A DNA stretch of 47,030 bases, taken from positions 1 through 47,030 of IMG/VR virus record IMGVR_UViG_3300044682_000032. The stretch is one strand, 5' to 3'. Shown here piece by piece: positions 1,098 to 44,085 of this stretch. Both the position numbers and the translations under genes were made by a program. The notes below the pieces were generated by a model. That model did not search any database. It was not told the DNA's origin and worked only from the letters and a program-made list of their open reading frames with translations. How positions within the stretch are numbered: the first letter of the stretch is position 1; each line of letters starts with the position of its first letter. This DNA is from a virus.

Positions 1098-1099
1098 TC

Positions 1100-1297: not shown

Positions 1298-2073
1298 CAG
1301 GCGTTCTCCACGCTCCGCTCGATGTCTTCCTCGTCTTCGTACATTTCCCGTTGGCGCGCAAGCGCTTGCACGATAGTCGCAGCTAGCCCAGTGTCAAACC
1401 CGAACTTCTCAAGCCCGGCTGCCCTTACGGCGCATTCGTAGCCGCAACCGGCATAGCCCGCGGCGTCAACCCATGAGTCACGCTTTCCCGGCGACCAGGC
1501 CAGGCGCGAGATCTTGAGCATCATCATGAAGATGGCCACGTCGTGACCCTGGAGGAGATTGCTGTTGACCCTGAAGCCAAAGGCATTCGCCATTCCCGCG
1601 GTGCGCTCGAAGTCCTGGGTCGGGGGACCATACTGGTTGTTCCGGTCGCCAGTGATGAGCTGGCGCGCTTCGTCCAGCGCGCTTGCGCGCGGGGAGTCAT
1701 CGAGCACGGGGGTGCCAATCGGCTCGAAGTACCAGTACGGCTGCTCGTTATAAGCTGCGCTTGGCTCCGCAAGCGTGAACTCCTTCCCTGTCCACTTGGC
1801 CACCTCAATCTCGCGCCTGGCACCTTCACTGGTTTCCCAGCCGGGAAGAAGAACGATCTCGTCAGCCTCCAGGACTTGCGCGAGATCGGCCTGGAGGTAG
1901 GTGGCAACATCCAGAGTCTTGTCGCCGTCGAAGTTGCGGGCCGGATTCAGTACCTCGTGGTCCGGCCACTGGCGCTTCAGCTCTGCCTCCACGGCCATGA
2001 AGGTGGGGTTGTTGTGCTCGGGAACCCCCCGCATTGGCCCGGAGATGTAACGCTTGTAGGTGTGCGACTTCAT
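1297..2073 (-). CDS. DUF4406-like / DUF6378-like fusion protein
   Basis: 258 residues from the ATG at 2073 (ATGA overlap with the MazG-like gene). Residues ~1-100 look like the DUF4406/nucleoside 2-deoxyribosyltransferase-like Rossmann fold: a YISGPMRG start, an ADEIVLLPGWETSEGA segment and REIEVA. Residues ~140-220 match the phage DUF6378 type: ITGDRNNQYG, then HDVAIFMMMLKISRL and a W.DAAGYAGCGYE segment. Both kinds occur in phage nucleotide-metabolism clusters, commonly as separate genes. Placement next to a MazG-like gene fits a role in nucleotide-pool handling; no enzymatic activity can be assigned with confidence. Confidence 0.75.
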   Translation of the reverse strand: MKSHTYKRYISGPMRGVPEHNNPTFMAVEAELKRQWPDHEVLNPARNFDGDKTLDVATYLQADLAQVLEADEIVLLPGWETSEGARREIEVAKWTGKEFTLAEPSAAYNEQPYWYFEPIGTPVLDDSPRASALDEARQLITGDRNNQYGPPTQDFERTAGMANAFGFRVNSNLLQGHDVAIFMMMLKISRLAWSPGKRDSWVDAAGYAGCGYECAVRAAGLEKFGFDTGLAATIVQALARQREMYEDEEDIERSVENA

Positions 2074-2393
2074 GCAGCTTCTTCCTCTTTCCATCCTCGC
2101 GACCGGATCACATCAAGCTTGTCCCTAACTGCCTTGTCAATGTCAATCCCAAGGCGTTCGGCAAAGACGGCCGCGGCGATTAGCACATCTGCGATCTCGT
2201 CTTTAATTTCCTGAGAGCTGCCATTACGGCGAGCCTTCCCGGCCCAGCGACGGTAGGCGCCAACTAGCTCTCCCGCTTCCTCTGCCACGCAGAGGGCTTG
2301 CACGTCAAGCTGATTCTCGTCAGTAATTCCTTCACGACGATTGAGCGCGAACTCGCGGTTCAGGTCGCATGCCTTGTCTCTAAGCTCACTCAC
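2070..2393 (-). CDS. MazG-like nucleoside triphosphate pyrophosphohydrolase
   Basis: 107 residues from a GTG overlapping the previous stop (GTGA). The MazG/dUTPase-like all-alpha signature is visible: VAEEAGELVGAYRRW (Glu38, Glu39, Glu42) followed by EIKDEIADVLI (Glu66, Asp69). These acidic residues bind the metal in this superfamily. The length suits a single-domain phage MazG. It probably hydrolyses non-canonical or signalling NTPs; the substrate cannot be read from the sequence. Confidence 0.85.
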   Translation of the reverse strand: MSELRDKACDLNREFALNRREGITDENQLDVQALCVAEEAGELVGAYRRWAGKARRNGSSQEIKDEIADVLIAAAVFAERLGIDIDKAVRDKLDVIRSRGWKEEEAA

Positions 2394-2797
2394 AGATACC
2401 TCCGGTCAACCCACTCGTTGTGCATTCCAGGGAAGTTCGCGGCACTTGCCCGATCGGGTGCGGTAGACGCCGCGTGTGTCTCGGTGTCCCCGCCTTCGGG
2501 AAGCTGGAAGACGCCGAGAAGGTGGCCCGCGGCGAGGGCATAAGAAGCCGCTGAGCCTTCGATCACTTCACCCGCGGTGCTCAGTGGGAGCTTTGAGAGC
2601 AGGGCGAGCAACTTAGAGAAGGCGATAGCAACAAACGCAGCACTCTCGGGAGATTCGGTAATCTCCGCGAGTCCCTCACTGATCGTGCGAGCCGCGCTGC
2701 CATACCGGGCGCGCTCCTGGTCGGACATGCATGAAGAGACACCCTCGGCTAGCTGCCGGGCTGACTCGCGAAGTTCTGAAGCTTCCGTGTCGTTCAC
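2390..2797 (-). CDS. Hypothetical helical protein
   Basis: 135 residues, GTG start overlapping the stop of the HTH gene (GTGA). Mostly alanine/leucine-rich amphipathic helix up to residue ~100, then a proline/threonine-containing tail. No motif or family recognised. Its place between the MazG-like and HTH genes in an unbroken overlap chain supports expression. Confidence 0.6.
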   Translation of the reverse strand: MNDTEASELRESARQLAEGVSSCMSDQERARYGSAARTISEGLAEITESPESAAFVAIAFSKLLALLSKLPLSTAGEVIEGSAASYALAAGHLLGVFQLPEGGDTETHAASTAPDRASAANFPGMHNEWVDRRYL

Positions 2798-2988
2798 TCG
2801 CCGGTCCTCTGAATGTAGTTGTCCACGTCACGCTGGGGAAAGCGGACGAAATGGCCGAGCTTGTGGCGCCGGAGACCCCAGTCTTTCCATCGCCGGTCTA
2901 CCGTCTTGCGGGAGACGCCGAGCTGGTCGGCTACTTGCTGGGGTGAGACGAGGACGTTACTGCCTCCGCGCATCGCGCCCCTCCCCAT
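2794..2988 (-). CDS. Excisionase-like helix-turn-helix DNA-binding protein
   Basis: 64 residues with a MerR/excisionase-type winged HTH: VSPQQVADQLGVSRKTVDRRW, then GLRRHKLGHFVRFPQRDVDNYI. This is the size and layout of phage excisionases and of AlpA-like regulators. The ATG at 2988 has GGAGGG upstream; an in-frame ATG at 2973 with GGAGG upstream is equally possible. In a phage with a tyrosine integrase it is the best candidate for the excisionase or a small regulator. It lies in the early operon, not beside the integrase gene. Confidence 0.75.
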   Translation of the reverse strand: MGRGAMRGGSNVLVSPQQVADQLGVSRKTVDRRWKDWGLRRHKLGHFVRFPQRDVDNYIQRTGE

Positions 2989-3340
2989 CCTGGGTGCCCT
3001 CCGGCGGTTCCGCCCACACGACGAGCCGCAGCGTGACGAAATCGGCGTCCCCTTCAGCGCAGCCCGTCTCGATCAGGCCGTCGATCAGGCCGTCTTCGCC
3101 TTTCATGAAGCGCATGTACTGCACTTCGCGGCTAATGTCGGGCTCGTGGGCCAGCGTCTCGCCGGACTGGCTGACCTCGATGAACAGGGTGTCGGAGTCG
3201 ATGACCGGGTTGCGGTAGCGGAACTCGGAGGCGGCGGCGCGGAGCGACTCCCACACGATCTCTGGTGAGATCATGTCGCGCCAGAGATCGGCCGAGAGCT
3301 GCGTGCAGGCGACGACCCGCTCCCGTGAGCTATTTATCAC
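2957..3340 (-). CDS. Hypothetical protein, early operon
   Basis: 127 residues if it begins at the GTG at 3340 (VINSSRERVV), which has GGGAGG about 9 bases upstream. A GTG at 3385 and an ATG at 3274 in the same frame are alternatives. The chain reads as alpha/beta with an acidic, Gly/Asp-rich C-terminus. It overlaps the HTH gene start by about 30 bases. No family recognised. Confidence 0.55.
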   Translation of the reverse strand: MINSSRERVVACTQLSADLWRDMISPEIVWESLRAAASEFRYRNPVIDSDTLFIEVSQSGETLAHEPDISREVQYMRFMKGEDGLIDGLIETGCAEGDADFVTLRLVVWAEPPEGTQDGEGRDARRQ

Positions 3341-3424
3341 TCTGCGCCGCCTCCCACTTGCAGAATCGACAGTTGCGACCGGCACATAGTGCCGAGAGTG
3401 CCCATCCTGGGCGCCAGTGCACCT

Positions 3425-3727
3425 TCACTTCTCTGGCACCAGCTTGCGCATTGGGCGGCAGGGAAACGTCTCGCTGCAGCCCAGGAAGGAACTCATCTCA
3501 CACCAAGGAAGCTTGGGATCTCCCGTGCGAAGATACTTAAGCCCATCGGCGGACAGGTAAACCTCACGCACCTCGTACGCGGGCTCGATAACCTTGCAGG
3601 AGTCAATCCGAACTTGCACCGTCTCCCGATCGCCATCACGGTAAAGATTAAGGTAAACCAGACCGATATCGCTTACCTCTCCGACGACCTTTGACTCGAC
3701 ACGAGCACCCTTGTATATCTCGCTCAC
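3425..3727 (-). CDS. Hypothetical protein
   Basis: 100 residues, GTG start in a GTGA overlap with the preceding gene. Beta-rich N-terminus (VSDIGLVYLNLYRDGDRE) and three Cys in the C-terminal third, too irregular for a clear zinc site. About 85 bases without a clear gene separate it from the next gene downstream. No family recognised. Confidence 0.6.
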   Translation of the reverse strand: MSEIYKGARVESKVVGEVSDIGLVYLNLYRDGDRETVQVRIDSCKVIEPAYEVREVYLSADGLKYLRTGDPKLPWCEMSSFLGCSETFPCRPMRKLVPEK

Positions 3728-4092
3728 TTCGCCTCTTTCATTTGTGCCTTGAATGCAGCGCGGGCCTGGTCAAGCTCACTCCCGCGCTTCTGGTCCCGAG
3801 TCTCGCGGCATTGCTCAAGCAAGCCGCGGGCAACGTTGCGGAAAGACTCATCGTCGGGCAGCATTCCCGGGATTGGAAATGCGTGCCAGATGTCCCCCTC
3901 GCCTGGGTTGGTGTTGCGGATGCTGACCATGACGAGCCACGCGGCACCTGGGCCGATCTCTTTACCCTCGGGGCTGACAAGGGGCCAGATTGAGGGACCG
4001 CAGACGGCATAGCCGAAGGGCTCGTTCAGCGCAGCATCCTTCAGTGCTCCCTTAACAACACCTTCGAGTCGCTGGGCGTGGTTAATGCTCAC
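3724..4092 (-). CDS. Hypothetical protein
   Basis: 122 residues from the GTG at 4092, five bases beyond the stop of the preceding gene, with GAGG upstream; the same frame stays open to 4212 but that part overlaps the neighbour. Contains WPLVSPEGKEIGPGAAW and IWHAFPIPGMLPDDESFRN, and a charged helical tail. No motif recognised. Confidence 0.6.
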   Translation of the reverse strand: MSINHAQRLEGVVKGALKDAALNEPFGYAVCGPSIWPLVSPEGKEIGPGAAWLVMVSIRNTNPGEGDIWHAFPIPGMLPDDESFRNVARGLLEQCRETRDQKRGSELDQARAAFKAQMKEAK

Positions 4093-4097
4093 TCGTC

Positions 4098-4517
4098 TTA
4101 GTCCTCTGTGGGGGCGAAGTAAGGGAAACGCCCGTACAATTCTTCCGGGGTGACGTCTGGGCGCTTTCCGATGTAGCGAAGCCGCTTGATAGCCAAGGTC
4201 TCGTCCTTGCAAAAGAAGACCGCCTCGGCCTGCCCGTCCGTCAGGCCCATGACGTCCCTGGCATATTCAAAAATGGCCTCAACATAATCCCCCTGCTTGT
4301 CATACAGGCTGCAGGGATTAACCATACTTCCCGCTGGTGCGGTGAGCAGGACGGCAAATCCCGCGAGACAGGCGGTTGTTTCGCATGACCCTTCCCGCAT
4401 TTCCTCCACGGGAACGCGGGGGGCATAAATGCCCGAACCTATAAAGGTGCCTTGGTCGTGGCGTGGGTTTTTTTTGGCCAGGGAGCACACGGCGTCGATC
4501 AGGAGCTTGTTAACCAT
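4098..4517 (-). CDS. Hypothetical protein with conserved Cys pairs
   Basis: 139 residues from the ATG at 4517, which overlaps the end of the pentapeptide-repeat gene by eight bases. Contains CETTACLAGFAVLL, then an AEAVFFCKDETLAIKRLRYIG helix and a VTPEELYGRFPYF segment. Proteins with a C-x-T-x-x-C-x-A-G-x-A pattern occur in several actinophages without known function. No enzymatic motif is evident. Confidence 0.6.
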   Translation of the reverse strand: MVNKLLIDAVCSLAKKNPRHDQGTFIGSGIYAPRVPVEEMREGSCETTACLAGFAVLLTAPAGSMVNPCSLYDKQGDYVEAIFEYARDVMGLTDGQAEAVFFCKDETLAIKRLRYIGKRPDVTPEELYGRFPYFAPTED

Positions 4518-5349
4518 TGAAGTCCTCTGCCTCTTCGCGGGTAATGAAGAAATGAATGCCATTACTGCATTCTTCCCAGCGATTGGGATCGAAACCGTCA
4601 GGGTGGACGGTTTCGCCTGCACGATAGACGAGCCGGGAACCTTGGCTCAAGTGGGAACTCAGGGCCGCGGCGGCCGGGCCGATAATTTCAAGAACTTCGG
4701 CATATTCGGCACGGCACTTACGGCCGGTGGAGTTCGAGCGCTTCGCGGCGGCTGGAATCCTGAGCTTTACAAGGACGCCACCCGCGCATTTCTTCCATCC
4801 GATGAGGTCACCTTCGGGAAGGATGGAAGCCTGGGCGGCGGCAAGGGGGGGGATATTCTGCGCCCCACGGAGGTTGGTTCCACGGAGGTTGGCCCCACGG
4901 AGGTTGGCCCCCTGGAGGTTGGCCCCATAGAGGTCGGCCTCATAGAGGTCGGCCCCACGGAGGTTGGCCTCATAGAGGCTGGCCCCACCACGGAGGCTGG
5001 CCCAACGGAGGTTGGCCTCAGCGAGGTCGGCCCCACGGAGGTTGGCCCCATAGAGGTTGGCCTCATGGAGGTCGGCCCAACGGAGGTTGGCCCCACGGAG
5101 GTTGGCCTCATGGAGGTCGGCCCCACGGAGGTTGGCCTCATGGAGGTCGGCCTCATGGAGGCTGGCCCCATCGAGGTTGGCCCCACGGAGGTTGGCCCCA
5201 TAGAGGTTGGCCTCATGGAGGTTGGCCCCACGGAGGTTGGCCCCATGGAGGTCGGCCCCACGGAGGTTGGCCCCACGGAGGTTGGCCCCACGGAGGTTGG
5301 CCGTTGGTTTAATTGTGTACTCGGTGCCGTTGATCTCCATCTTCGACAT
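4510..5349 (-). CDS. Pentapeptide-repeat protein with C-terminal DUF5758-like domain
   Basis: 279 residues. After a 16-residue leader come 29 consecutive A(N/D)LxX pentapeptides (residues 17-162), predicted to fold as a right-handed quadrilateral beta-helix. One unit near residue 120 has six residues (ASLRGG), which breaks the register once. From about residue 170 a second domain follows: LIGWKKC, RSNSTGRKCRAEYAEVLEI, FDPNRWEECSNGIHFFIT, the pattern of the DUF5758 domain found behind pentapeptide repeats in viruses and bacteria. Some pentapeptide proteins (MfpA/Qnr) mimic DNA and bind gyrase; whether this one does is unknown. It has its own promoter (5383-5405) within the early operon. Confidence 0.85.
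   Translation of the reverse strand: MSKMEINGTEYTIKPTANLRGANLRGANLRGADLHGANLRGANLHEANLYGANLRGANLDGASLHEADLHEANLRGADLHEANLRGANLRWADLHEANLYGANLRGADLAEANLRWASLRGGASLYEANLRGADLYEADLYGANLQGANLRGANLRGTNLRGAQNIPPLAAAQASILPEGDLIGWKKCAGGVLVKLRIPAAAKRSNSTGRKCRAEYAEVLEIIGPAAAALSSHLSQGSRLVYRAGETVHPDGFDPNRWEECSNGIHFFITREEAEDFNG
4864..5301 (-). repeat. 15-bp tandem repeat array encoding pentapeptides
   Basis: About 29 units of 15 bp, mostly GCCAACCTCCGTGGG-like on the coding strand, in the pentapeptide gene. The array keeps long frames open on both strands, which produces misleading antisense ORFs. One unit is 18 bp and marks the six-residue repeat. Confidence 0.9.
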
Positions 5350-5358
5350 GTCCCGCCT

Positions 5359-5373
5359 CTGGTTGCAAGTTGA
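5359..5373 (-). promoter_or_regulatory. Leader element TCAACTTGCAACCAG, site 1
   Basis: On the minus strand this reads TCAACTTGCAACCAG, followed by AGGCGGGAC and the ATG of the pentapeptide gene. It lies 9 bases downstream of the -10 proposed at 5383-5388, so at the very start of the mRNA. Near-identical copies lie in the same orientation before other genes. Confidence 0.6.
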
Positions 5374-5380
5374 TTTAAGC

Positions 5381-5605
5381 TCATCTTACTTCGAGGGCGC
5401 TACCATCATCCGCCACCCTCCAGTGGCGGTGAAAGCATTGCTCGGGAGACGGCACCCTGCCGGTACCATCGAACTCGCGCTCGCAAGCAAGGCACCTATC
5501 CTCCGGGTACACCACGCCATCACGCTCACCGGCGAGCACGCCCTTAAGGAGGCCGGGATCGTCCTGGTGATTGCTGCCGCCACGGCGGTACCCGGAACTC
5601 TTCAT
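5381..5605 (-). CDS. Small Cys/His-containing hypothetical protein
   Basis: 74 residues starting at the ATG at 5605 in an ATGA overlap with the exonuclease gene; the overlap picks this frame over a neighbouring open frame. Contains RCLACEREFD and QCFHRHW, a possible zinc site. No family recognised. Confidence 0.6.
   Translation of the reverse strand: MKSSGYRRGGSNHQDDPGLLKGVLAGERDGVVYPEDRCLACEREFDGTGRVPSPEQCFHRHWRVADDGSALEVR
5383..5405 (-). promoter_or_regulatory. Promoter with TGGTAGC box for the pentapeptide gene
   Basis: Minus strand: TGGTAGCG at 5405-5398, and counting 17 nt from its first base the -10 hexamer TAAGAT at 5388-5383. The same TGGTAGC-to-minus-10 geometry occurs at 8349-8372, 10240-10262, 10286-10309 and 45083-45111. 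It overlaps the end of the preceding gene, so it would give the distal part of the early operon an internal start. Confidence 0.5.
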
Positions 5606-6174
5606 GACACCTTCGGCTCCCAGAGTTTTGGCCCAGTCAGGAGACCCCTGCGTGTCAGCTCAAGACGGAGCTGCTGGTGCTGCCGCACGTCTCCAACGAC
5701 ACGCTCACGCGTCTTCTCGATGCCCGCGGGGGTAAGCCGGTTGGCTTCCCTCCAGTCCTGCTGTGACATGTGAATCTTGGGGGACTCGATACCCAGGGCC
5801 AGGCCGAGTTCTTCCTGACTCTTCGGCTGAGCCTGAAAGCTCCACTTCACCAGGTCTAGCTTTGTGTCGATCGTCAGCTTGGGACCGAGCGGGCCAATGC
5901 CCAGCTCGACCATCGCACCGTTGATAATGGGCAGGTCATGCCTGCGGATGTAATGACCCGTAACGATGTCTGCTGCCTCGTAGGCCACATGAAAAGCATT
6001 CAGCATATCCTCGGAGTACATGAGGCCAAGCTGGGCGCAAACAATCGCGCGGCCGTTGCCAGCGAAGCCGAACGCGATGGCTGTGATGTCCGCCGTTGTG
6101 AAATCGTTTCCCATGTAGGAGAGCGGGCGATTCTCGATGTCAAAGTCGAGGATCAGGGGCCGGTCAACGCTCAA
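5602..6174 (-). CDS. RNase H-like 3'-5' exonuclease (DnaQ/PolB exonuclease type)
   Basis: 190 residues from the TTG at 6174, which has GGAGG nine bases upstream. DEDD-type exonuclease features: LDFDIENRPLSY near residue 9 (Exo I, Asp and Glu), VTGHYIRRHDLPIINGAM near residue 75 (Exo II, His-Asp), and TIDTKLDLVKW near 105. The LDxE-RP-SY start is typical of the PolB-like exonuclease domain. No polymerase domain is attached and no DNA polymerase was found elsewhere, so it may act in recombination or as a proofreading helper for host polymerase. Confidence 0.75.
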   Translation of the reverse strand: MSVDRPLILDFDIENRPLSYMGNDFTTADITAIAFGFAGNGRAIVCAQLGLMYSEDMLNAFHVAYEAADIVTGHYIRRHDLPIINGAMVELGIGPLGPKLTIDTKLDLVKWSFQAQPKSQEELGLALGIESPKIHMSQQDWREANRLTPAGIEKTRERVVGDVRQHQQLRLELTRRGLLTGPKLWEPKVS

Positions 6175-6367
6175 CAAGGTAAACCTCCCCCGGCTCAATC
6201 TCGAAGGGCTTGCCTTCGGCAAGCGCGAGGTTCATAGCCTCTTCCAGTTCAGGGAGCTTCTCGGCTATCTCTTCGTCGGCCGCTAGCGTGTGCTTCAGCC
6301 GGATAGCCGCACGGGCGGCCTTGAGCACTGCCGTCTTCTGCCGCTCGATTGGTGTGGTGCGCCTCAT
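6164..6367 (-). CDS. Small helical hypothetical protein
   Basis: 67 residues; basic N-terminal helix (RRTTPIERQKTAVLKAARAAIRLK) followed by an acidic helix. ATG at 6367 forms an ATGA overlap with the 57-residue zinc protein before it. It could be a small DNA-binding or regulatory protein, but no motif is recognised. Confidence 0.6.
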   Translation of the reverse strand: MRRTTPIERQKTAVLKAARAAIRLKHTLAADEEIAEKLPELEEAMNLALAEGKPFEIEPGEVYLVER

Positions 6368-6537
6368 CGTGGCTTCCTTCTCGTCGCCTGGTGTCGCATG
6401 TCGGTCAGCATCCCTTTAGCTGTCCGCTTGTACCTGGCTTGCGATGCTCTCCGTAGTGCCTGGATTGACGGGCAGCGCTCTTCCGCGGTGCCCCTGTTGG
6501 CGTGGACCCCCGTGCACTCAGGGTGAGGGCACTTCAT
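6364..6537 (-). CDS. 57-residue CPHPEC zinc-type actinophage protein
   Basis: ATG at 6537 overlaps the stop of the primase TOPRIM gene (ATGA) and its own stop overlaps the next start (ATGA). The start MKCPHPECTGVHANRGT, then ERCPS and a basic SQARYKRTAKG tail, resembles small zinc-type proteins common in actinophages. Cys-x2-His...Cys...His...Cys could bind one metal ion. The function of the group is unknown. Confidence 0.75.
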   Translation of the reverse strand: MKCPHPECTGVHANRGTAEERCPSIQALRRASQARYKRTAKGMLTDMRHQATRRKPR

Positions 6538-7193
6538 TCATCCTCGTCCGTTGTCATCTGCGCGCGGAGGCCCCCTAGCTGGCCCTTGGCCGCAAGGCTT
6601 GAGATGTCCTCCCCATCAGGGAGACGTATTATCCGGCCGCGCCACCCGATACGCTCTGCCATCTCTTCCGAGAAATCACGTCCCGCCTGGTCGCCATCGC
6701 CAAAGATGAAGACCGACGTGAAATCCTTGAGGCCGGGAAGCCAGAAGTCTTTGAAATTCTCGACCCCCGGAACCCCGAGGGTTGGAATCCCAAGCACCTC
6801 AGTTGCCACCAGTGCGTCAATCTCCCCCTCGGCAAGGCCCAGGGTCTCCCCCGCGGCAAAGTAAGCGGGGGTATTGTAAAGCCGTGAGGCCTGGCCCTTG
6901 TGCTGCCCTATCTTCGAGGCCCGGCCAAAGAGGCGGAAACGAAGAGCGGTTACCCCCTTGGTGCTCAGGTACGGGATCGCAAGCGCCCCCCTGAAGCGCT
7001 CATCCCCCGGGAGGGGGTCTGCAACATAGCCGAGCTGGTACTTCTGGGCCATCTGGAAGGTAACACTATGATCCTTCAAATAGCCTCTGACGGAAGCGAG
7101 AGACTCGCTTCGGGCGTTCTTCCCGAACTGGTCCGCGTAGAGAGCCGACGCTTTGGCCAAGTACCGTTGCTGCGTACTCGATCGCATGCTCAC
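6534..7193 (-). CDS. DNA primase, TOPRIM catalytic part
   Basis: 219 residues from a GTG at 7193 (an in-frame ATG lies at 7187). After a helical linker come the DnaG-type segments KYQLGYVADPLPGDERFRGALAIP (shown by ends KYQLGYV and RGALAIPY) and the TOPRIM core: LAEGEIDALVATEVLG (Glu) and VFIFGDGDQAGRDF (D-x-D-x-x-G). It lacks the CHC2 zinc finger, which is encoded by the preceding gene in another frame. Together they would form a split DnaG-like primase that makes RNA primers for phage replication, next to the DnaB/RecA-like ATPase upstream. Confidence 0.85.
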   Translation of the reverse strand: MSMRSSTQQRYLAKASALYADQFGKNARSESLASVRGYLKDHSVTFQMAQKYQLGYVADPLPGDERFRGALAIPYLSTKGVTALRFRLFGRASKIGQHKGQASRLYNTPAYFAAGETLGLAEGEIDALVATEVLGIPTLGVPGVENFKDFWLPGLKDFTSVFIFGDGDQAGRDFSEEMAERIGWRGRIIRLPDGEDISSLAAKGQLGGLRAQMTTDEDE

Positions 7194-7410
7194 GATCCAG
7201 TTGCTCCCTCTCCATGAGCAGGGTCAGTGCCGTACCTTTCGCCCCGCAGGCAAGACAGGCAAAGGCACCCTTCTCCAGGTTGACTCTCGCGCTTGCCGTG
7301 CGATCGGGATGAAAGGGGCACTTTATTGTCTGCCATCCATGCTCTCGGGTGCGGTGAAGGTCGGCGCCGTAGTGTTCTAGGACGGCGGCGATGGAGAGGT
7401 CTTCCTGCAT
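7066..7410 (-). CDS. DNA primase, CHC2 zinc-finger part
   Basis: 114 residues from the ATG at 7410 (MQEDLSIAAVLEHYG); a TTG at 7419 is possible. CHC2 finger: IKCPFHPDRTASARV ... GAFACLACGAKGTALTLL, the Cys-His-Cys-Cys template-recognition site of DnaG-type primases. It ends with a basic tail (PKRVSRFRQRLF). Its last 128 bases overlap the TOPRIM gene in a different frame and both frames read like real primase sequence there. Split primases of this layout are known in actinophages. Confidence 0.85.
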   Translation of the reverse strand: MQEDLSIAAVLEHYGADLHRTREHGWQTIKCPFHPDRTASARVNLEKGAFACLACGAKGTALTLLMEREQLDREHAIEYAATVLGQSVGSLRGPVREERPKRVSRFRQRLFEGS

Positions 7411-7592
7411 GGCGCCCAATCCACTACCGTTTCGACAGTGATAACGCGTCGGATGACAATCGCGTCACCCAATTCGGCCACGCCTTCGGCTTCATCATAG
7501 GTGGGATAGATAACCAGAGGATCATCCTCGGTGCCGTCGTCGTCCCACCAGACGGCGAACTCTTCGCGCTCATTCGCAGTAAGGGTCACCAT
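7377..7592 (-). CDS. Hypothetical acidic protein
   Basis: 71 residues from the ATG at 7592, preceded by GGAAGCAGG. Starts MVTLTANEREEFAVWWDDDG, acidic in the middle, ending VDWAPCRKTSPSPPS. It overlaps both neighbours (Hjc-like nuclease and CHC2 primase). No family recognised. Confidence 0.6.
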   Translation of the reverse strand: MVTLTANEREEFAVWWDDDGTEDDPLVIYPTYDEAEGVAELGDAIVIRRVITVETVVDWAPCRKTSPSPPS

Positions 7593-7911
7593 AGCCTGCT
7601 TCCCGTAGAAGCCGGACAAGCTGCGAAAAGGGGAGAGTGGCGGGCCAGTCCCCAACGGTCGTGAGACCAAAGCCATCGGGCCTGTGGATCACGATTGGGA
7701 GACCGGGCTGAGTCTTGGCCTGACGAATCCAGGCCGGAAGGTCGAGCGCCCTGCGCGCCTTTACCTCTATCGCCAGTCCTGGGACGTTTTCCACGTCTGA
7801 CCCGGGAAGTGAGGCTGGCCTTCGCTTTGCGCAGGGCCATCCGTGGGTGGCGAGGTAGTCCGCCACGGCGCGTTCCGTCTCACGTCCCCGGCGCACTCTA
7901 CTGGAGGCCAT
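7570..7911 (-). CDS. PD-(D/E)XK nuclease, Holliday-junction-resolvase-like
   Basis: 113 residues. Layout of a small Hjc-like nuclease: basic N-terminus RRGRETERAVADYLATHGWP (catalytic Glu in GRETE), then GSDVENVPGLAIEVKARRALDL, where Asp and E-V-K form the PD-(D/E)XK core. An aromatic WIRQAKTQ helix and an IVIHRPDG strand complete the fold. Similar genes sit in replication operons of Streptomyces and other actinophages, often annotated as nuclease or Holliday junction resolvase. Confidence 0.8.
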   Translation of the reverse strand: MASSRVRRGRETERAVADYLATHGWPCAKRRPASLPGSDVENVPGLAIEVKARRALDLPAWIRQAKTQPGLPIVIHRPDGFGLTTVGDWPATLPFSQLVRLLREAGYGDPYCE

Positions 7912-7966
7912 TCAGCGGCCACCCAGAGTGTCTTGAGGCCAAAGATACGAAACCATCTCCCACTCC

Positions 7967-8317
7967 TCAGGCCTTGACGCTCTTGCATTGCTGCTGCCCG
8001 CGGGGAGCTGGGCATCCATAGAAGGCGTCGTAGGGCTTCCCGCCGTTCTTGCTGTAGCCAGCGGGGACAAACCGCATCTCCCCATGCTGGCAGCGGGGAA
8101 CGTTGTTCTGCTGTGCCTGCTCCTGCTGACCCTGGGGAGAAGATAGCCAGGGGTCTTCTTCCTGGTTCTGGCTCCCGGTGCTCTGCGGGCTCTGGGAATT
8201 TGGGGTAGGGGGGTTACTCTGCGTAGCGGAGTTCCCACCAAGGCGGGACACTACCGCGTCCGCAAGCTTCTGGATCGTCTCATCTTCGAGACCGACACTG
8301 AGAATCTCTATTGCCAT
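7967..8317 (-). CDS. Hypothetical protein with C-terminal CxHG...C...C zinc-type motif
   Basis: 116 residues from the ATG at 8317, with AAAGGGG upstream. N-terminal helix (MAIEILSVGLEDETIQKLADAVV shown here only by MAIEILSVGL), a ~45-residue Gln/Ser/Pro-rich linker, then PRCQHGEMRF...GKPYDAF.GCP...QCKSV. The tail resembles actinophage proteins with C-x-HG ... GKPY ... C ... QC. The layout suggests a flexible adaptor, perhaps nucleic-acid-associated. First gene after its own promoter at 8349-8372. Confidence 0.65.
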   Translation of the reverse strand: MAIEILSVGLEDETIQKLADAVVSRLGGNSATQSNPPTPNSQSPQSTGSQNQEEDPWLSSPQGQQEQAQQNNVPRCQHGEMRFVPAGYSKNGGKPYDAFYGCPAPRGQQQCKSVKA

Positions 8318-8334
8318 GTTTCCCCTTTGTGAAG

Positions 8335-8350
8335 CTGGTTGCAAGTTGAC
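8335..8350 (-). promoter_or_regulatory. Leader element GTCAACTTGCAACCAG, site 2
   Basis: Extended to 8334-8353 it is a 20-mer (plus strand GCTGGTTGCAAGTTGACATT) identical to 10213-10232. It lies between the -10 of the local promoter and the ribosome-binding site of the gene starting at 8317. Confidence 0.65.
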
Positions 8351-8372
8351 ATTACCACTTGATCCGCTACCA
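8349..8372 (-). promoter_or_regulatory. Promoter with TGGTAGC box upstream of 8317
   Basis: Minus strand: TGGTAGCG at 8372-8365 and a -10-like TAATGT at 8354-8349, 18 nt from the first base of the box. The area also holds a direct repeat of GATCA followed by GTGGTA. With the leader element behind it, it matches the sites at 5383-5405 and 10240-10262. Confidence 0.45.
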
Positions 8373-8376
8373 CTGA

Positions 8377-9138
8377 TCAGGTAACTTTTGGTGCGCGGCC
8401 TAGAGAGTGATCCTTGCTGGACATCTCCCAGTCGAACACCTTCTTGAGTGCAAGGAAGTACTCGAAGGCTTCGGGAATGTGGTATACGGGAACGAGAGTC
8501 GCCCCCCGCGGCCGGACATGCAGGATGGCGAACTTGTCGTACTTTGGGACCGGAAACTCCCCCGCGTCCGTGATGATAACCTCGGCTTTTGCTATCGCGG
8601 CAATCTGAGCTGCGGTCTCGGGGTAAACCCCTTTGCCGGTCTTGGTGTCCGCCAGAACGTGCCAGTCCCCGATATAGAAGCTCAGATCACCCGTTCCGGC
8701 GTAGCCGTACTTGTCGGACCACACCGTGAACTCGGACCCTGTGTACTGCGGGCTGTAGTGCGCTTCCCACTTCAGGAAGCTGTTCCACATCCACCGTACA
8801 GTGTTCGAGGCGTTCTGTACTTCGTCATGCGAAGGAGTGTCGCCTGTAATCCTGCGCTCTATCCAGTTGTGAACGATGTCCCCAGTGATCGAGGCTTCGG
8901 ACTTCTCGAACTGGCTCTCGCGAATGAGCGTAACGCGCTCCTGGGGGGTGAGCGGAGTTAGCCGCTCCCAGTTGTCCACGGTGTAGTGAGCGGCCTTGGT
9001 CACCATGGACACATTGATCGCTGGCTTGTTGTGGCGCCGCAGGATGTTGGTGATCGAGGGAAGGCGCGTATCGGTACCGGGCTTCCAGTAGTGACGGCCC
9101 TTGCCGGGCTCGTCTACTGCGTACTTTGGGGTTGTCAA
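8377..9138 (-). CDS. RecB/Cas4-like PD-(D/E)XK exonuclease
   Basis: 253 residues from a TTG at 9138 that overlaps the preceding stop (TTGA). Features of the phage RecB-like nuclease family: LPSITNILRRHNKP near the N-terminus, GDIVHNWIERR (the GxxxH helix) near residue 86, GYAGTGDLSFYIGDWHVLADTKTGK near residue 145-170 (Asp, then D-T-K in place of E-V-K), then ETAAQIAAIAKAE, the QxxxY-like helix. Probably acts in recombination or DNA end processing. Confidence 0.8.
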   Translation of the reverse strand: MTTPKYAVDEPGKGRHYWKPGTDTRLPSITNILRRHNKPAINVSMVTKAAHYTVDNWERLTPLTPQERVTLIRESQFEKSEASITGDIVHNWIERRITGDTPSHDEVQNASNTVRWMWNSFLKWEAHYSPQYTGSEFTVWSDKYGYAGTGDLSFYIGDWHVLADTKTGKGVYPETAAQIAAIAKAEVIITDAGEFPVPKYDKFAILHVRPRGATLVPVYHIPEAFEYFLALKKVFDWEMSSKDHSLGRAPKVT

Positions 9139-9938
9139 AGCTCTTCCTCGTATCGATCGGTGACCTTGAGGCTCTCCTGAACATCAAAGAGCATCCACTT
9201 TGTGGCGTCGGGGTATTGCGGGCCATTGGTGTTCTTCACTGCGCAGACGCACAGTGCGCGCTCATTTGCCGCGGTGGTCAGCACCAGGCGGGGGATCTGG
9301 GTAATCTTCCCCTGGATCGCCGCACGCGGAACAGGGTCCGCAGCGGACCCCCACCCCTCGCTGGCGTGATGAAGGACGCAAATGTGGCTCTTGGTCTCGC
9401 GGGCAAGCTGGTCGAGCCCATTGGTCATGTCGCGCATGTAGCCCCAGTCGTCGGTACTTGGCGCGAAGTTGATGAGGTTATCCAGGAACACGATGTCTGG
9501 GTAAGACCCGTCGCGCGAAAATGCCTCATAGGTATTCAGCCGGTCGGCAACCTCATCCATCTCAAGGGCGCGGTACTCGAAGAGTGTCCCTGACAGGGAG
9601 TGCAGTGCCGGGAGGTACTTCGAGTAGTGGCGGTTGATGAAGTCGGCATCAACTTGCTGGGATGGTGTATTCGTGAGGATTCCCGCAAGCCTCCGGGCAA
9701 CGGTGTGCTCATCACTGTCGGCCGAGAAGTACAGAGCTGAATACCCTGCCTGCACCCAGCGTGTCAGAAGGTTGAGCGCTAGCACGCTCTTGAAGCTCCC
9801 GGGTTTACCGGCAATCATCGACGTCGCACCGTACCGGAAGCGGATGTTGTTCACGTCGAAGATTGGGTAAGGTGATTCGAGTGGCTGCCCTAGGCGGCCA
9901 GTGCGGGAGGCGAACTTATGGATTGAGAACAAGTTCAC
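9135..9938 (-). CDS. DnaB/RecA-like ATPase (replicative helicase candidate)
   Basis: 267 residues from a GTG at 9938 in a GTGA overlap. Walker A AGKPGSFKS at residues 43-51, Walker B DIVFLDNL near 148-155, then CVLHHASEG near 195, the His-containing sensor of the RecA fold. It has only the ATPase core, with no DnaB N-terminal domain. Similar short ATPases in actinophage replication operons are called DnaB-like helicases or RepA-like proteins. Works presumably with the split primase. A second, RepA-like ATPase is encoded at 14093-15046. Confidence 0.8.
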   Translation of the reverse strand: MNLFSIHKFASRTGRLGQPLESPYPIFDVNNIRFRYGATSMIAGKPGSFKSVLALNLLTRWVQAGYSALYFSADSDEHTVARRLAGILTNTPSQQVDADFINRHYSKYLPALHSLSGTLFEYRALEMDEVADRLNTYEAFSRDGSYPDIVFLDNLINFAPSTDDWGYMRDMTNGLDQLARETKSHICVLHHASEGWGSAADPVPRAAIQGKITQIPRLVLTTAANERALCVCAVKNTNGPQYPDATKWMLFDVQESLKVTDRYEEEL

Positions 9939-10054
9939 TTACCTCCGGTGAACAGATAAGCCCCACCAATGACCAGTAGTGCGACCACCAGAACAATGAA
10001 GGCGACTCGCAAATCAAGAATCTGGCCTTGCAGAACGTAGAGCTGATGTTTCAC
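9935..10054 (-). CDS. 39-residue single-pass membrane peptide
   Basis: GTG at 10054 overlaps the preceding stop (GTGA); the stop overlaps the helicase start. A short N-terminus (VKHQLYVLQGQILDL) is followed by one clear membrane segment, AFIVLVVALLVIGGAYLF. Function unknown. The overlaps on both sides make it likely to be translated. Confidence 0.6.
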   Translation of the reverse strand: MKHQLYVLQGQILDLRVAFIVLVVALLVIGGAYLFTGGK

Positions 10055-10197
10055 TCGGCATCCTTCCGGTTCTGCTTCTTGCGGAGGCTCTCCAGGGTTG
10101 GCATGGTCGGAGCGCGAGAGAGCCCGCGAGCCGCTAGGCGAGCGGGGTAGTTGCTCCTGCCGCGGTCGGGATGCTTGGTGTTGTACTTGCGAGAGAT
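10051..10197 (-). CDS. 48-residue basic protein with an apparent ATC start
   Basis: The frame reads (I/M)SRKYNTKHPDRGRSNYPARL... to ...SLRKKQNRKDAE and ends in an overlap with the next gene (GAGTGA). The product resembles small basic actinophage proteins of the RKYNTxHPxRGRSNYPxRLxARGL kind. Between the upstream in-frame stop and the conserved part there is no ATG, GTG or TTG; GGAGG stands just ahead of ATC at 10197. ATC is therefore the best start. It is the first gene of the early operon. If ATC is not used, translation would have to start at the ATG at 10104 and give a fragment. Confidence 0.6.
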   Translation of the reverse strand: MSRKYNTKHPDRGRSNYPARLAARGLSRAPTMPTLESLRKKQNRKDAE

Positions 10198-10212
10198 GGT
10201 TCCTCCAGGTGG

Positions 10213-10232
10213 GCTGGTTGCAAGTTGACATT
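10213..10232 (-). promoter_or_regulatory. Leader element, site 3 (20 bp identical to 8334-8353)
   Basis: Plus-strand GCTGGTTGCAAGTTGACATT; on the gene strand AATGTCAACTTGCAACCAGC, followed by the GGAGG of the first early gene. It is in the transcribed leader of the promoter at 10240-10262. Confidence 0.65.
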
Positions 10233-10239
10233 CGGGTCA

Positions 10240-10262
10240 ATCCTACCTGGTAGTCGCTACCA
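10240..10262 (-). promoter_or_regulatory. Early minus-strand promoter with TGGTAGC operator
   Basis: Minus strand: TGGTAGCG at 10262-10255, -10 TAGGAT at 10245-10240, 17 nt from the first base of the box. The box is part of a perfect inverted repeat CTGGTAGTCGCTACCAG (plus strand 10247-10263), so a dimeric regulator could bind across the spacer. It would drive the whole 10 kb early operon. Confidence 0.55.
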
Positions 10263-10311: not shown

Positions 10312-10341
10312 GTTAAGAACTTAAGCGTTAAGAACTTAAGC
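10312..10341. repeat. Two tandem copies of GTTAAGAACTTAAGC
   Basis: Perfect 15-bp direct repeats at 10312-10326 and 10327-10341, with GTTAG continuing. At the join they form the inverted repeat CTTAAGCGTTAAG. Their position over the predicted transcription start suggests an operator. Confidence 0.7.
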
Positions 10342-11461: not shown

Positions 11462-11631
11462 CCTGCACTCTGCGCCATAGGCTGCTGTGCCGCCTTGGCC
11501 GCCATCGCTTCTGGACGTATCGCTTGCAGATGTCCGATGAGCTGCCCGCCTACGTGACCACCATTGATCAATGTGAGCACTGCGGGCACATCGGCTACGC
11601 CGTCGCCGCCGTCTACCACTGTAACAGGTAA
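11458..11631 (+). CDS. 57-residue zinc-ribbon-like protein
   Basis: ATG at 11458 in an ATGA overlap. Contains LLCRLGRHRFW and DQCEHCGHIGYAVAAVYHC, the CxxC plus C pattern of small actinophage proteins of the CxxGRHxW type. Its last two codons and stop fall in the first GTAACAG heptad of the repeat at 11621-11641. Confidence 0.65.
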   Translation: MTCTLRHRLLCRLGRHRFWTYRLQMSDELPAYVTTIDQCEHCGHIGYAVAAVYHCNR

Positions 11632-11641
11632 CAGGTAACAG
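11621..11641. repeat. GTAAC heptad array 1 (three GTAACAG units)
   Basis: GTAACAG at 11621, 11628 and 11635: three perfect units with an exact 7-bp period. Equivalent triplets, in either orientation, are at 18447-18467, 18624-18644 and 43457-43477. The region 11642-11750 behind it holds no gene I can see. Confidence 0.8.
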
Positions 11642-13744: not shown

Positions 13745-14080
13745 ATGCTTAAGCGCCCCTGCAGGGTTTGCGGCGTCCCTAGCCGCATCGGAGTTTGCGC
13801 CGCCCACCTTGACCGAGATCGCCATCATAAAATCCCCAGGTCATCCAGAGGCTATAATGCCGAGTATGATCGTGCGCGACGAGCGATTAAAGATAATTGC
13901 AATGACATATGGGCGCACGGTGGTGCCGTCTCCTGCTACCTCTGCGGGAAGTCGATTGCTGGCCCCGCACAGCTCTCAGTCGAGCACCTGACCCCACTGC
14001 GACATGGCGGGGGGTCGGCTCCTCAGAACCTCGCCCCCGCACATCGCAGTTGCAACTACGCGCGCCGGACGCGCGCCTAG
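13745..14080 (+). CDS. HNH endonuclease
   Basis: 111 residues, ATG at 13745 with GAGGAC upstream. Zinc and catalytic features in order: PCRVCGVPS and CAAHLDRDR (residues ~5-25), CYLCGKSI (~64-71), SVEHLTPLRHGGGSAPQNL (~80-98, the His of the HNH core) and HRSCNYARR (~101-109). Small HNH proteins beside the terminase genes take part in cos cleavage in many siphoviruses. Here a 4 kb minus-strand block separates it from TerS. Confidence 0.85.
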   Translation: MLKRPCRVCGVPSRIGVCAAHLDRDRHHKIPRSSRGYNAEYDRARRAIKDNCNDIWAHGGAVSCYLCGKSIAGPAQLSVEHLTPLRHGGGSAPQNLAPAHRSCNYARRTRA

Positions 14081-14092
14081 TTGTTACTTGTT

Positions 14093-15046
14093 TCAGTTGT
14101 GGTGCATCTCCAGTGGCGGGAGGTCCTCTGGCTTGCGCTCGGACCATGACCCACGCTCGGGCTGGTAAACCAGCTGCCTGCCCTTCAGGCGCGTCAGTGC
14201 GACGCGCACGTTGCCGTAGGAGTCGTTGACCTCCCTGGCCACCTCTTGGGTTTCGAGCGGCTTGTCGGACTGCCTGAGCACCGTCAGGACACGTTCGGCC
14301 GTTGTTGGTTCGTGAGCTGCGGTAGCGACGTCATCGGGCAGCCCCACGTACTGAACATGCACTGAGGTCGGCCCGTCGCCAGTGATGACGTAGGCCAGAT
14401 CCGGCACACTGTCGGACGCCACGTTTGTCTTCTCGACGTGAATCAGGCGAACACGGTCATTCTGCACGGACCGGCTGACACGCAGGACCATGCGGACACC
14501 ATCCACTAGGGACTTGCTTCCGCCGATCTTGCCATCCTTCGTGACGTGCCCTACCGGCACAATTGCGCAGCCGGAGTCAAACGCCACCTGATCCAGCGGA
14601 CGCAGGAGCTTCCGCCGGATGGTTACCACGTCCGAGGTCAGGGCGACAGAGGAGACGTTCGCCAGTGGGTCAAGGGTGACCATGCGAACGTCTCCGATCT
14701 CATCGATCATCTCTCGGAGCTTGGGTAGCGAGTCAGGTATCACCAGGTCGTCAGGAGCTTGGTAAACCTTGGTCATGTCGGCTCCGGCTGCGTGAAGACG
14801 CCACCATGTGGACCGGTTGGGGTCATCCTCGGTTGCGCCAAGAATGACACTGCCGAGCGGTGGCCCCTGACTGCCGTCAGGCATCGGAGAGCCGGTAGTG
14901 ATACGCGCGGCGAGATCGGCAAGCAGCATACTCTTGCCGATGCCACCCTCACCTGCCATGAGTGTTACTTGCTGCAGGGGGATGTATCCCTGCTCAAGCC
15001 ACTCCACTTGCATGGGCGTAACATCGCTAAACGGTGTGGGTTCCAT
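14093..15046 (-). CDS. RepA-like AAA ATPase (primase-helicase type)
   Basis: 317 residues from the ATG at 15046, which has AAGGGGG upstream; an in-frame ATG at 15091 has no such site. Walker A MAGEGGIGKS at 30-39, TEDDPNRSTWWRL near 70, Walker B MVTLDPLANVS near 125, and VGHVTKDGKIGGSKSLVDG near 160-178, as in the AAA_25/RepA-like family of phages and actinobacterial elements. The last ~75 residues look like a winged helix (TAERVLTVLRQSDKPLETQEVA). It is a second replication-type ATPase, besides that at 9135-9938. Confidence 0.8.
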   Translation of the reverse strand: MEPTPFSDVTPMQVEWLEQGYIPLQQVTLMAGEGGIGKSMLLADLAARITTGSPMPDGSQGPPLGSVILGATEDDPNRSTWWRLHAAGADMTKVYQAPDDLVIPDSLPKLREMIDEIGDVRMVTLDPLANVSSVALTSDVVTIRRKLLRPLDQVAFDSGCAIVPVGHVTKDGKIGGSKSLVDGVRMVLRVSRSVQNDRVRLIHVEKTNVASDSVPDLAYVITGDGPTSVHVQYVGLPDDVATAAHEPTTAERVLTVLRQSDKPLETQEVAREVNDSYGNVRVALTRLKGRQLVYQPERGSWSERKPEDLPPLEMHHN

Positions 15047-15098
15047 CGAAACCCCCTTTCTTCTTGCATGCCCGTTCGTTTGAGCGGACATAGCCGCA

Positions 15099-15140: not shown

Positions 15141-15653
15141 TCAGACCCGTGCGGCGTATACAGGAATGTCGGTCAGGTGCTCCAAGGCGTCTAGATTCAG
15201 GGGTACTATCACCCTCGCGAAGCGCTCCGGCAGTTTGCGCGCGAACCGAATTCCAGCACGGAACGCGGGTGGTTCGAGGGCGAGACTTGAGCCGTCGCGC
15301 TGGTGAATGTGCGCGAACTCATGGGCAAGGGTAGTGGAGGCAAGCACCTCCCCCGGTATCCCGTACTCTCCGGCAAAGAGCTGTGTGCTATACGGGTTAA
15401 GGAAAGTGCGGGGTCGTGCGACCTTCACTGGCGGGGGCAGCGTGAAGCGGTCAGACACCGTCATCCCGAACGCTCCCATCGCCTCCTCGTAGGTCTCAAT
15501 GAAGAACTCGAAAGGCATCTCGGAAAATGCGTCCATCATGTCAGTGGAGACTGACCAGTTGGCCTGCGTCATGGCTTGGTGCAAGCCAGGGTCGTACACC
15601 CGGACCACGTCTAGGGCCGAGGTGATCAATTCATTGTGCAGGTTGTATTCCAT
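15141..15653 (-). CDS. HExxH metallopeptidase-like protein
   Basis: 170 residues, ATG at 15653 with AAGGACG upstream. The zinc-peptidase helix TTLAHEFAHIHQRDG is at residues ~107-121. The layout (N-terminal helical part, HExxH, short tail) recalls ImmA/IrrE-like peptidases or small gluzincins. ImmA-like proteins cleave phage or ICE repressors; no HTH is fused here and no repressor is next to it. A role in repressor turnover is only a possibility. Confidence 0.65.
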   Translation of the reverse strand: MEYNLHNELITSALDVVRVYDPGLHQAMTQANWSVSTDMMDAFSEMPFEFFIETYEEAMGAFGMTVSDRFTLPPPVKVARPRTFLNPYSTQLFAGEYGIPGEVLASTTLAHEFAHIHQRDGSSLALEPPAFRAGIRFARKLPERFARVIVPLNLDALEHLTDIPVYAARV

Positions 15654-17341: not shown

Positions 17342-17635
17342 CTAGTTACAGTTCCCGGCTGCGGAGGTCAGCACGAAAGGCTCACCTTGCAGCCACATCA
17401 GCAGCACACCGTCAACGTAGCTGGCCCAGGCGGGGAGTCCGGGGCTGGTCACGGCCGGCTTCGTCGTGGTCGTGGTCGTGGTCGTGGTTGCCATGATCGT
17501 TCCTCTCGCGCCGATCTCATCCGCGAAGTATCCATCCGGAAGGGTCACGAACGACTCGTAGTAGTACTCTCCGTAGTAGTTCACCGGCCGGTCGGTGCGG
17601 AAAGCCAGACCTTTAGAAGTAACATAAATTTCCAT
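17342..17635 (-). CDS. Hypothetical protein with internal Thr9 tract (57-bp repeat copy A)
   Basis: 97 residues from the ATG at 17635, with GGCGGAG upstream. Beta-rich N-terminus (MEIYVTSKGLAF, NYYGEYYYESF), then residues 43-60 encoded by the 57-bp repeat, including MATTTTTTTTTKPA, then a hydrophobic C-terminus (YVDGVLLMWLQGEPFVL). The repeat carries a ribosome-binding site and ATG of its own (17494), so a 50-residue shorter product starting MATTT is also possible. No family recognised. Confidence 0.55.
   Translation of the reverse strand: MEIYVTSKGLAFRTDRPVNYYGEYYYESFVTLPDGYFADEIGARGTIMATTTTTTTTTKPAVTSPGLPAWASYVDGVLLMWLQGEPFVLTSAAGNCN
17452..17508 (-). repeat. 57-bp direct repeat, copy A
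   Basis: Identical to 17773-17829. It contains, on the minus strand, GAGAGGAACGATC-ATG and codons for A-T9-K-P-A. In this copy it is in frame inside a longer gene. Confidence 0.9.
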
Positions 17636-17650
17636 GAACTCCGCCTCTCG

Positions 17651-17815
17651 TCAGCGCTGGTAGTAACTGGCGCGCTCACACCAGTACGGGTGTTCGCTCT
17701 CACGCGGCTCGCAGACCTGGCACTCGGTGCAGTGCTTGCGCGCGGTCTCGCCACAACGCTTGCAGTGCTTGTCGGCCGGCTTCGTCGTGGTCGTGGTCGT
17801 GGTCGTGGTTGCCAT
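17651..17815 (-). CDS. 54-residue zinc-ribbon protein with N-terminal Thr9
   Basis: ATG at 17815, with GAGAGG ten bases upstream, both inside the 57-bp repeat. MA-T9-KPADKH is followed by CKRCGETARKHCTECQVCE and HPYWCERASYYQR: at least six cysteines and several His, room for a zinc ribbon. The Thr tract would be a flexible tail, and in Actinobacteria such Thr-rich stretches can be O-mannosylated only if exported, for which no signal is seen. Confidence 0.65.
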   Translation of the reverse strand: MATTTTTTTTTKPADKHCKRCGETARKHCTECQVCEPRESEHPYWCERASYYQR

Positions 17816-18225: not shown

Positions 18226-18446
18226 GGATCCACTTGCTGCCAGCATGCGGTCAGGTTGTTACCGTCTGGCCGCCAGCCCGGCAAGCCTGCAACCATACTC
18301 ACCGTAGGTTCCTGTTACGACGCATTGTTACATGATCACTAGCATTTCCCCTGGTCAGAGGATTGTTACCTGTTAGCAAGGCTAAATGCATCGCTAACGA
18401 CCCCACGATGACATCGTTAGCAAGGCTAACCAACTCGTTAGCAAGG

Positions 18447-18467
18447 GTAACTAGTAACATGTAACAC
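18447..18467. repeat. GTAAC heptad array 2
   Basis: GTAAC at 18447, 18454 and 18461, exact 7-bp period (GTAACTA, GTAACAT, GTAACAC). It runs out of the third iteron and is opposed, 160 bp further, by array 3 in the other orientation. Confidence 0.8.
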
Positions 18468-18623
18468 CGCAGGTCAGAGGCCGGGGGGGCACCTTGATCT
18501 TCACGCCCATGTGTCGACTGGGACCGTCCACCGGTCACGCGTAAATCGCCTCGAAATTACGCGATTTTTCGCTGAACTGCACAAATACAACAAAAAACTC
18601 CCTGACCTGCGCAAATTTGCGTT

Positions 18624-18644
18624 GTTACTTGTTACAAGTTACGA
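18624..18644. repeat. GTTAC heptad array 3
   Basis: GTTAC at 18624, 18631 and 18638, exact 7-bp period (GTTACTT, GTTACAA, GTTACGA), 23 bp upstream of the TerS start codon. Confidence 0.8.
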
Positions 18645-18666
18645 GGCACCATAGAGAGGCGATGCA

Positions 18667-19143
18667 GTGGCCAGAGGGCGACCCAGGGTTCCGCTTGAGC
18701 GAATGCAGGCACGCTCCCCCGATGGCAAGACGCCCGGAAAGCGAAATCTACCGGCGAAGGTTTCGCTTCAGGTTGACCGAACCGTCCCTGAGACGCCTTC
18801 TGAAATCACTGGCCGGGGCTTTATCGAGTGGGAGAAGCTTTGGCAGGCCGGATGGTGGCTTCAGCGCGAGCAGGACTACCCATGGATCGAAATGATTTGC
18901 CATGCGTACATGGACATCGAAACATGGCGGGAACGTGTAGCCGAGGACGGTCTTGTTGTCACTGGCTACGCGGGCCAGGTGGTGGCGCACCCCCTCATTG
19001 CGGAGATTCGCAAGGCCGAGGCAACTATTCAGAAGTGCCTGCAGGTGCTGGGTTTCTCGCCAACTGACCGAGCCAAGCTTGCCATAAACCAGAGAAAGGC
19101 CATGAGCGCGCTCGAAGAGATGATTACCGCCTCTCAGGACTGA
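18667..19143 (+). CDS. Terminase small subunit, P27-like
   Basis: 158 residues from a GTG at 18667 with GAGAGGCG upstream. Basic start MARGRPRVPLERM, then ITGRGFIEWEKLWQAG...DYPWIEMICHAYMD, GYAGQVVAHPLIAEIRKAEATIQKCLQVLGFSPTDRAKL (shown by VVAHPLIAEIRKAE and LGFSPTDRAKL). The hPxxxxxr..e.....l...LGL.P..R pattern is that of P27-family small terminases. It recognises the packaging site and hands DNA to TerL; the GTTAC-box region just upstream is a natural candidate target. Confidence 0.85.
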   Translation: MARGRPRVPLERMQARSPDGKTPGKRNLPAKVSLQVDRTVPETPSEITGRGFIEWEKLWQAGWWLQREQDYPWIEMICHAYMDIETWRERVAEDGLVVTGYAGQVVAHPLIAEIRKAEATIQKCLQVLGFSPTDRAKLAINQRKAMSALEEMITASQD

Positions 19144-43524: not shown

Positions 43525-44085
43525 CTACACGCTCGCGCGCTTGACTGCCTTCCTGGCTGCTGACCTGTCCACGTACCCAAGCCGCTTGGCTATCTGCCCG
43601 TACGATAGACCCTCAACCTCCCGTAGGGCGAGGGCCGAAGCCGCTCGTTGCCGTTTGGGGCTTAGCTTGGCGGGCTGGTCTTCCCTGATCTCCCTCTCCT
43701 TTGATCTCCAGGCTCTCTTGCGCTCGCGTTCCCGCTCTAGGTACCGGGCGCGATAGCCAGGCTGCTGGCGATGCCACCTATTGTAGTGCCAGTTACACAG
43801 TCCGCGCTTGGCTGCAGGTCTTACCGCCTTCCCGGCACGGTTCGTGGTGGCGCATTCGATGCACGCCTTGGGGGGTGGGTACTTGTACGGCTGAAGCTCA
43901 CCCGAGCGCTGTGCCGACTTGAGGTGTGCCCAGCACATCCCCCTAGCCCCGAGGCGCTTTCCCGTGGCGGCATCCTTCAGGGGCTTGCCGCATCCGTAGA
44001 TGAAACAGTGCTCCCCGCGAGGGACTTCCATGGTCACATCGAGGCGCACTGGCACCTCGCGTGGCTTCAGCAGTGGACCCGGCAT
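43525..44085 (-). CDS. HTH / zinc-containing DNA-binding protein
   Basis: 186 residues; ATG shares a base with the preceding stop (TGATG). N-terminal half Cys/His-rich (CFIYGCGKPL, MCWAHLK, KACIECATTN, LCNWHYNRWHR), which recalls HNH-like or zinc-bound folds. A very basic helix follows (ERERERKRAWRSKERE) and a C-terminal sigma-r4-like HTH, VEGLSYGQIAKRLGYVDRSAARKAVKR. Last gene of a three-gene minus operon; a regulator candidate. Confidence 0.65.
   Translation of the reverse strand: MPGPLLKPREVPVRLDVTMEVPRGEHCFIYGCGKPLKDAATGKRLGARGMCWAHLKSAQRSGELQPYKYPPPKACIECATTNRAGKAVRPAAKRGLCNWHYNRWHRQQPGYRARYLERERERKRAWRSKEREIREDQPAKLSPKRQRAASALALREVEGLSYGQIAKRLGYVDRSAARKAVKRASV

Follow-up and report, generated by a model that had tools for sequence, protein, structure and literature searches.

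The cluster A mycobacteriophage stoperators (L5, Bxb1) are, by analogy, the nearest functional parallel to the arrays described here, with differences in the build and number of sites. Like these arrays, stoperators are short, mainly intergenic sites that stand at many operon boundaries and vary in sequence among relatives, and the Bxb1 stoperator consensus GTTACGWDTCAAG starts with GTTAC (PMC3029335). However, stoperators are single 13-bp asymmetric sites, present in 24-34 copies per genome and in one orientation to transcription, whereas in the window (the whole stretch of DNA analysed, a virus record of 47030 bases) the boxes are 5 bp long and grouped in threes, with about 5 groups in the genome, mixed orientation, no array in the early divergent region and no recognised two-domain repressor. 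Direct repeats with a 7-bp step in non-coding DNA are also found in omega/parS of pSM19035, where 7-10 contiguous heptads occur and at least 4 are needed for ParA activation (PMC9499535). There the unit is WATCACW and the reader a ribbon-helix-helix (RHH) protein, whereas here the units number three and RHH was not detected. HK97 likewise has a cos-type TerS, probably of the same fold as the one encoded here, and a conserved block lies just right of the probable cosN in the window; in contrast to heptad arrays, HK97 TerS uses one site and needs only 15 bp, +15 to +29 from cos, A-tract included (PMC11331095). The phages with the closest named TerL and TerS after Pontimonas phage phiPsal1, the phiC31 group (Lomovskayavirus; about 41% and 25-28% identity), differ in that phiBT1 and Euratis have no GTTAC array in their terS upstream stretches.

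The ends of the window are identical over 127 bp (1-127 and 46904-47030), and the contig is therefore probably complete and circularly assembled. The phage is temperate and encodes a tyrosine integrase, and its host is probably an actinobacterium, since the nearest TerL is that of phiPsal1, followed by the phiC31 group. Megablast of window positions 10-34 kb against the phage collection gave no match, and a tape-measure search for relatives found none; TerL searches yielded fragments of the same family. Transcription units were drawn from our own codon-usage gene calls:

230-10240, leftward: early genes
about 10.5-14.08 kb, rightward: short genes, fibre gene and HNH gene
13745..14080, plus strand: HNH endonuclease
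from about 18.2 kb to 14093, leftward: RepA-like operon, starting near array L
14093..15091, minus strand: RepA-like AAA_25 ATPase, the final gene of this operon
18667-43457, rightward: late genes
18667..19143, plus strand: TerS (Pfam Terminase_4)
43525-44967, leftward: further genes, with the integrase beyond, rightward

A sequence-only reading had proposed that GTTAC boxes occur as triplets at an exact 7-bp period at four operon boundaries. We confirm four exact triplets (GTTAC-N2-GTTAC-N2-GTTAC) in the 47 kb, at the positions given there, all of them outside genes or overlapping a stop codon only. Allowing up to 2 mismatches, 5 are found where dinucleotide shuffles predict 0.02. In a scan over words and periods, GTAAC at period 7 is the sole dispersed pentamer with a high triple-tandem count; the remaining high counts have periods of 6 or 15 and look like tandem repeats within genes, and in order-3 Markov sequences no combination of word and period exceeds 1. 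An unbiased comparison also ranks GTAACA highest for enrichment in intergenic DNA (14 copies in 5 kb intergenic versus 12 in 42 kb genic). Among 396 actinobacterial genomes (over 1 Gb), counted with a reversed-pattern control alongside, 9 triplets were found in total, in 3 genomes. Several or longer GTTAC heptamer tracts occur in three unrelated contigs, G007 (L069), G009 and G037.

The arrays and associated boxes are:

11621..11639, minus strand: fibre-side array, between a short gene and the fibre gene
14083-14094, plus strand: degenerate two-box array GTTACttGTTTC / GTTACTTGTTTC, filling the 12 bp that separate the HNH gene from the convergent RepA-like gene
18258..18451, no strand: dispersed GTTAC/GTTAG boxes, in the stretch that separates array L from the start of the RepA operon
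18447..18465, minus strand: array L, GTTACATGTTACTAGTTAC, pairing with array R as inverted arms
18624..18642, plus strand: array R, GTTACTTGTTACAAGTTAC, 25 bp upstream of terS, its position kept in relatives L005 and L007
43457..43475, plus strand: late-end array, adjoining the stop codon of the last late gene

Two of the locations first described hold with small corrections: the array placed before the fibre gene overlaps the stop of the short gene (TAA, 11629-11631), and the one placed between the last late stop and its terminator includes the last base of the TAG. This late-end array is directly followed by a strong terminator-like hairpin (about 43481-43511), and a G+C hairpin lies just before the 14083 pair; the folded stretch predicted after the 11621 array is weak (z -1.5). 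Taken alone, the 14083 pair is weak evidence, because the window has 20 such pairs at two mismatches, where 5.4 would be expected; it is its position that singles it out. Since this pair occupies the space that separates the HNH stop from that of RepA, no boundary of transcription units from 11.6 to 43.5 kb is without an array, whether full or degenerate, while the early-half boundaries (10.2-10.5 kb, 45.0-45.4 kb and 47.0/0.2 kb) have none. Among the dispersed boxes, 15-bp palindromes of the form GTTAGCaagG(C/G)TAAC (GTTAGCaagGCTAAC) occur at 18372, 18416 and 18437.

Arrays L and R form 25-nt inverted arms (88%), 146 nt apart, around what we consider a probable cos site:

18468..18477, plus strand: CGCAGGTCAG, adjoining array L; an exact inverted copy (18602-18611) adjoins array R
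18522..18536, no strand: probable cosN, a palindrome GACCG-N5-CGGTC that is unique in the window
18532..18573, plus strand: conserved block GGTCACGCG..CTCGAAATTA..TTTTTCGC, present in L005, L007, L400 and L404 and weaker in L398 and L385

The geometry of the palindrome is the same in L007. The contigs of L005, L394, L398 and L404 start 1-14 bases before the conserved block or its counterpart, as would be expected if linear virion DNA ended at this point. By analogy with HK97, the block is a possible TerS site. The sequence CCTGACCTGCG occurs twice before terS in L400, and similar sequences are found in L385 and L147. Two further regularities were considered and dropped: no spacer length was enriched over all stretches that would make a 5-N5-5 palindrome geometry common among the relatives, and the distance from block to array differs among them.

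A TerS search of viral contigs returned L005 and L007 alone, whose TerS are ~60% identical to that of the window. In both, an array stands just 5' of terS, in steps of 7 and then 8 bp and with one L005 box reading GTTTC; all GTAACA words of these loci (3/3 in L005, 5/5 in L007) fall within the terS upstream stretch, and the DNA flanking the boxes is poorly alignable. The expectation that relatives carry the array at the same boundary is borne out before terS, while nothing equivalent to the arrays at 11621 and 43457 is seen in the available relatives and L007 shows no left array within the stretch available. Different words occupy this place in more distant relatives: L400 carries TATGCA six times (0.02 expected), to the left and to the right of its cos block, and in L404 the word is TATTCA, present five times (0.03 expected). 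Such single cases carry selection bias, because they were found by a word scan of one short stretch per relative. In G452, the complete 42.5-kb genome of L400, six of eight TATGCA copies lie at cos/terS; exact boxes are found only there, the other operon ends being without boxes. This change of word at a constant place suggests that the boxes are bound by a DNA-binding protein specific to the lineage. L384 has a clearly related counterpart of the last late gene (67%), which does not lie at an operon end, and no array is found there. L385 has HNH, RepA and cos in the same order as the window; to the left of its cos, at 5400-6000, a 12-bp direct repeat (TGCCTAGGTCAC) also recurs at least four times, before the leftward RepA-like operon.

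We note that TerS looks HK97-like, though the resemblance is weak: the best fold match of its AlphaFold model is 8pop (Foldseek probability 0.84, E 0.39). No helix-turn-helix (HTH) was seen in the model, and an AT-hook-like RGRPR lies at the N-terminus. The suggestion that an omega-like RHH protein reads the arrays is not upheld, with three heptads here against 7-10 in omega and no RHH domain in the window or in complete G452, either by a six-frame Pfam RHH_1 search (which matches all 14 control genomes) or with a home-made RHH profile. No ParA was seen in the phage. The candidate readers are:

2794..2988, minus strand: HTH_17 protein, probably of excisionase type
43525..44085, minus strand: Cys-rich protein with a C-terminal HTH, adjoining the 43457 array

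A further HTH candidate (44635-44967) had no PDB match, and none of the candidate HTH proteins is common to the window and G452. The broader proposal that a factor reads the arrays is nevertheless strengthened: they lie in non-coding DNA, L005 and L007 retain one before terS, and distant relatives have another word in its place. RHH identity falls away, and of all the arrays only the two that flank cos could have a packaging role.

We tentatively favour, at a little short of an even chance, the explanation that the arrays are putative binding sites of a protein specific to this phage lineage, acting as operator and roadblock to insulate the late units and the cos/terS start in a somewhat stoperator-like manner. 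The protein would bind three near-palindromic GTWAC boxes side by side, in 7-bp steps over 21 bp or two helical turns. At 18447 and 18624 it would control the divergent leftward and late promoters and keep transcription out of cos, and at 11621, 14083 and 43457 it may serve as a roadblock at gene ends, as stoperators do. The exceptional frequency, the non-coding location, the placement at unit boundaries and the terS-side conservation in two relatives all argue for it, as do the word replacement in L400 and L404, the hairpins beside 43457 and 14083, and the absence of an array in L384, where there is no operon end. On the other side, the orientation of the arrays relative to transcription is inconstant, no sigma-70-like promoter was found at the arrays, the folding predicted after 11621 is weak, and the exact boxes of G452 are confined to cos/terS. 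Our confidence is kept low because the readers named are candidates, with no HTH candidate in common with G452, and because of the missing counterparts of the 11621 and 43457 arrays in the available relatives. An immunity-operator reading is not favoured: the early divergent region lacks an array and has different repeats, a tandem 15-mer (GTTAAGAACTTAAGC, two copies, 10312-10341) that is itself a candidate operator, so that the arrays are not obviously immunity operators.

A role in packaging, in which the cos-flanking arrays are cosB/cosQ-like and read by the terminase during cos cleavage while the distant copies are by-products, is unlikely but has to be weighed seriously. Arrays L and R face each other as inverted arms across the probable cos, relatives show boxes only on the cos/terS side, the box word shifts along with TerS divergence, and the L400 boxes flank cos even though its left neighbour is an HNH gene and no divergent operon lies there. 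However, a long distance separates the arrays at 11621, 14083 and 43457 from cos, and L007 again lacks a left array in the available stretch. About 90 bp lie between the probable cosN and the start of array R, more than the roughly 30 bp within which the TerS site of an HK97-type cos is found, and the 15-bp site of HK97 (PMC11331095) fits the conserved block better than the arrays. We rank packaging second, after the operator/roadblock explanation, because TerS looks HK97-like, with no HTH seen, and the site that HK97 TerS recognises is next to cosN. Reading the heptads as a partition centromere or as replication iterons, with an omega-like RHH ParB or the Rep protein of the RepA-like operon binding them, would account for their resemblance to omega sites, for the AAA_25 RepA-like gene in the adjacent operon and for the 12-bp tandem repeats left of cos in L385, which has a related RepA. 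The absence of an RHH domain, the presence of only three contiguous heptads, the tyrosine integrase, and the boxes of L400, in which no homologue of the window RepA was found, make this improbable.

Somewhat less doubtful than partition, although still rather unlikely, are heptamer repeats with no regulatory role, spread to inter-module gaps and tagging recombination joints. Heptamer tracts of this kind in G007, G009 and G037 agree with this, as do the flanking of modules by arrays and the shared orientation of 11621 with 18447 and of 18624 with 43457. The fibre module also moves, its homologue in L006 lying elsewhere (2385, between TerL and portal). Yet each full array has exactly three units with varying N2 linkers, homology past the boxes is limited to the 25-nt arms at cos, and the arrays are retained in L005 and L007 despite diverged flanks. 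Recognition by a GTnAC-type regulator of the host (GlnR, MtrA) is very improbable: the box matches GlnR half-sites (PMC10704036), but GlnR spacing is n6 (11 bp) against n2 (7 bp) in all arrays here, the word varies among relatives and the triplet is almost absent from actinobacterial genomes. Chance, in favour of which we found nothing, is refuted by frequency and conservation and deserves practically no weight.

A further reading, which we regard as speculative and not much likelier than the heptamer-repeat alternative, is a new insulator-type system of this phage group in which a small protein of the phage, distinct from classical immunity repressors, would coat the arrays flanking cos and every late unit end and so separate transcription from genome cutting, its word changing between relatives. 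If right, this would tie the control of transcription to cos cutting, in a way that can be tested, in a phage group about which little is known; and since relatives carry different words at one place, the reader could be tracked down through protein changes that go along with those of the box.

Other features of the window include, within the RepA operon, a protein with an HExxH motif (HEFAHIH) and no family match (15141-15653), and MATTTTTTTTTKPA, from a short coding repeat, common to two neighbouring small genes (17342-17815). Near-identical copies of TCAAcTTGCAACCAG lie shortly 5' of gene starts at 5361, 8337, 10216 and 15101 (minus strand) and at 24468 and 45402 (plus strand); sites of this type resemble the start-associated sequences of some mycobacteriophages.
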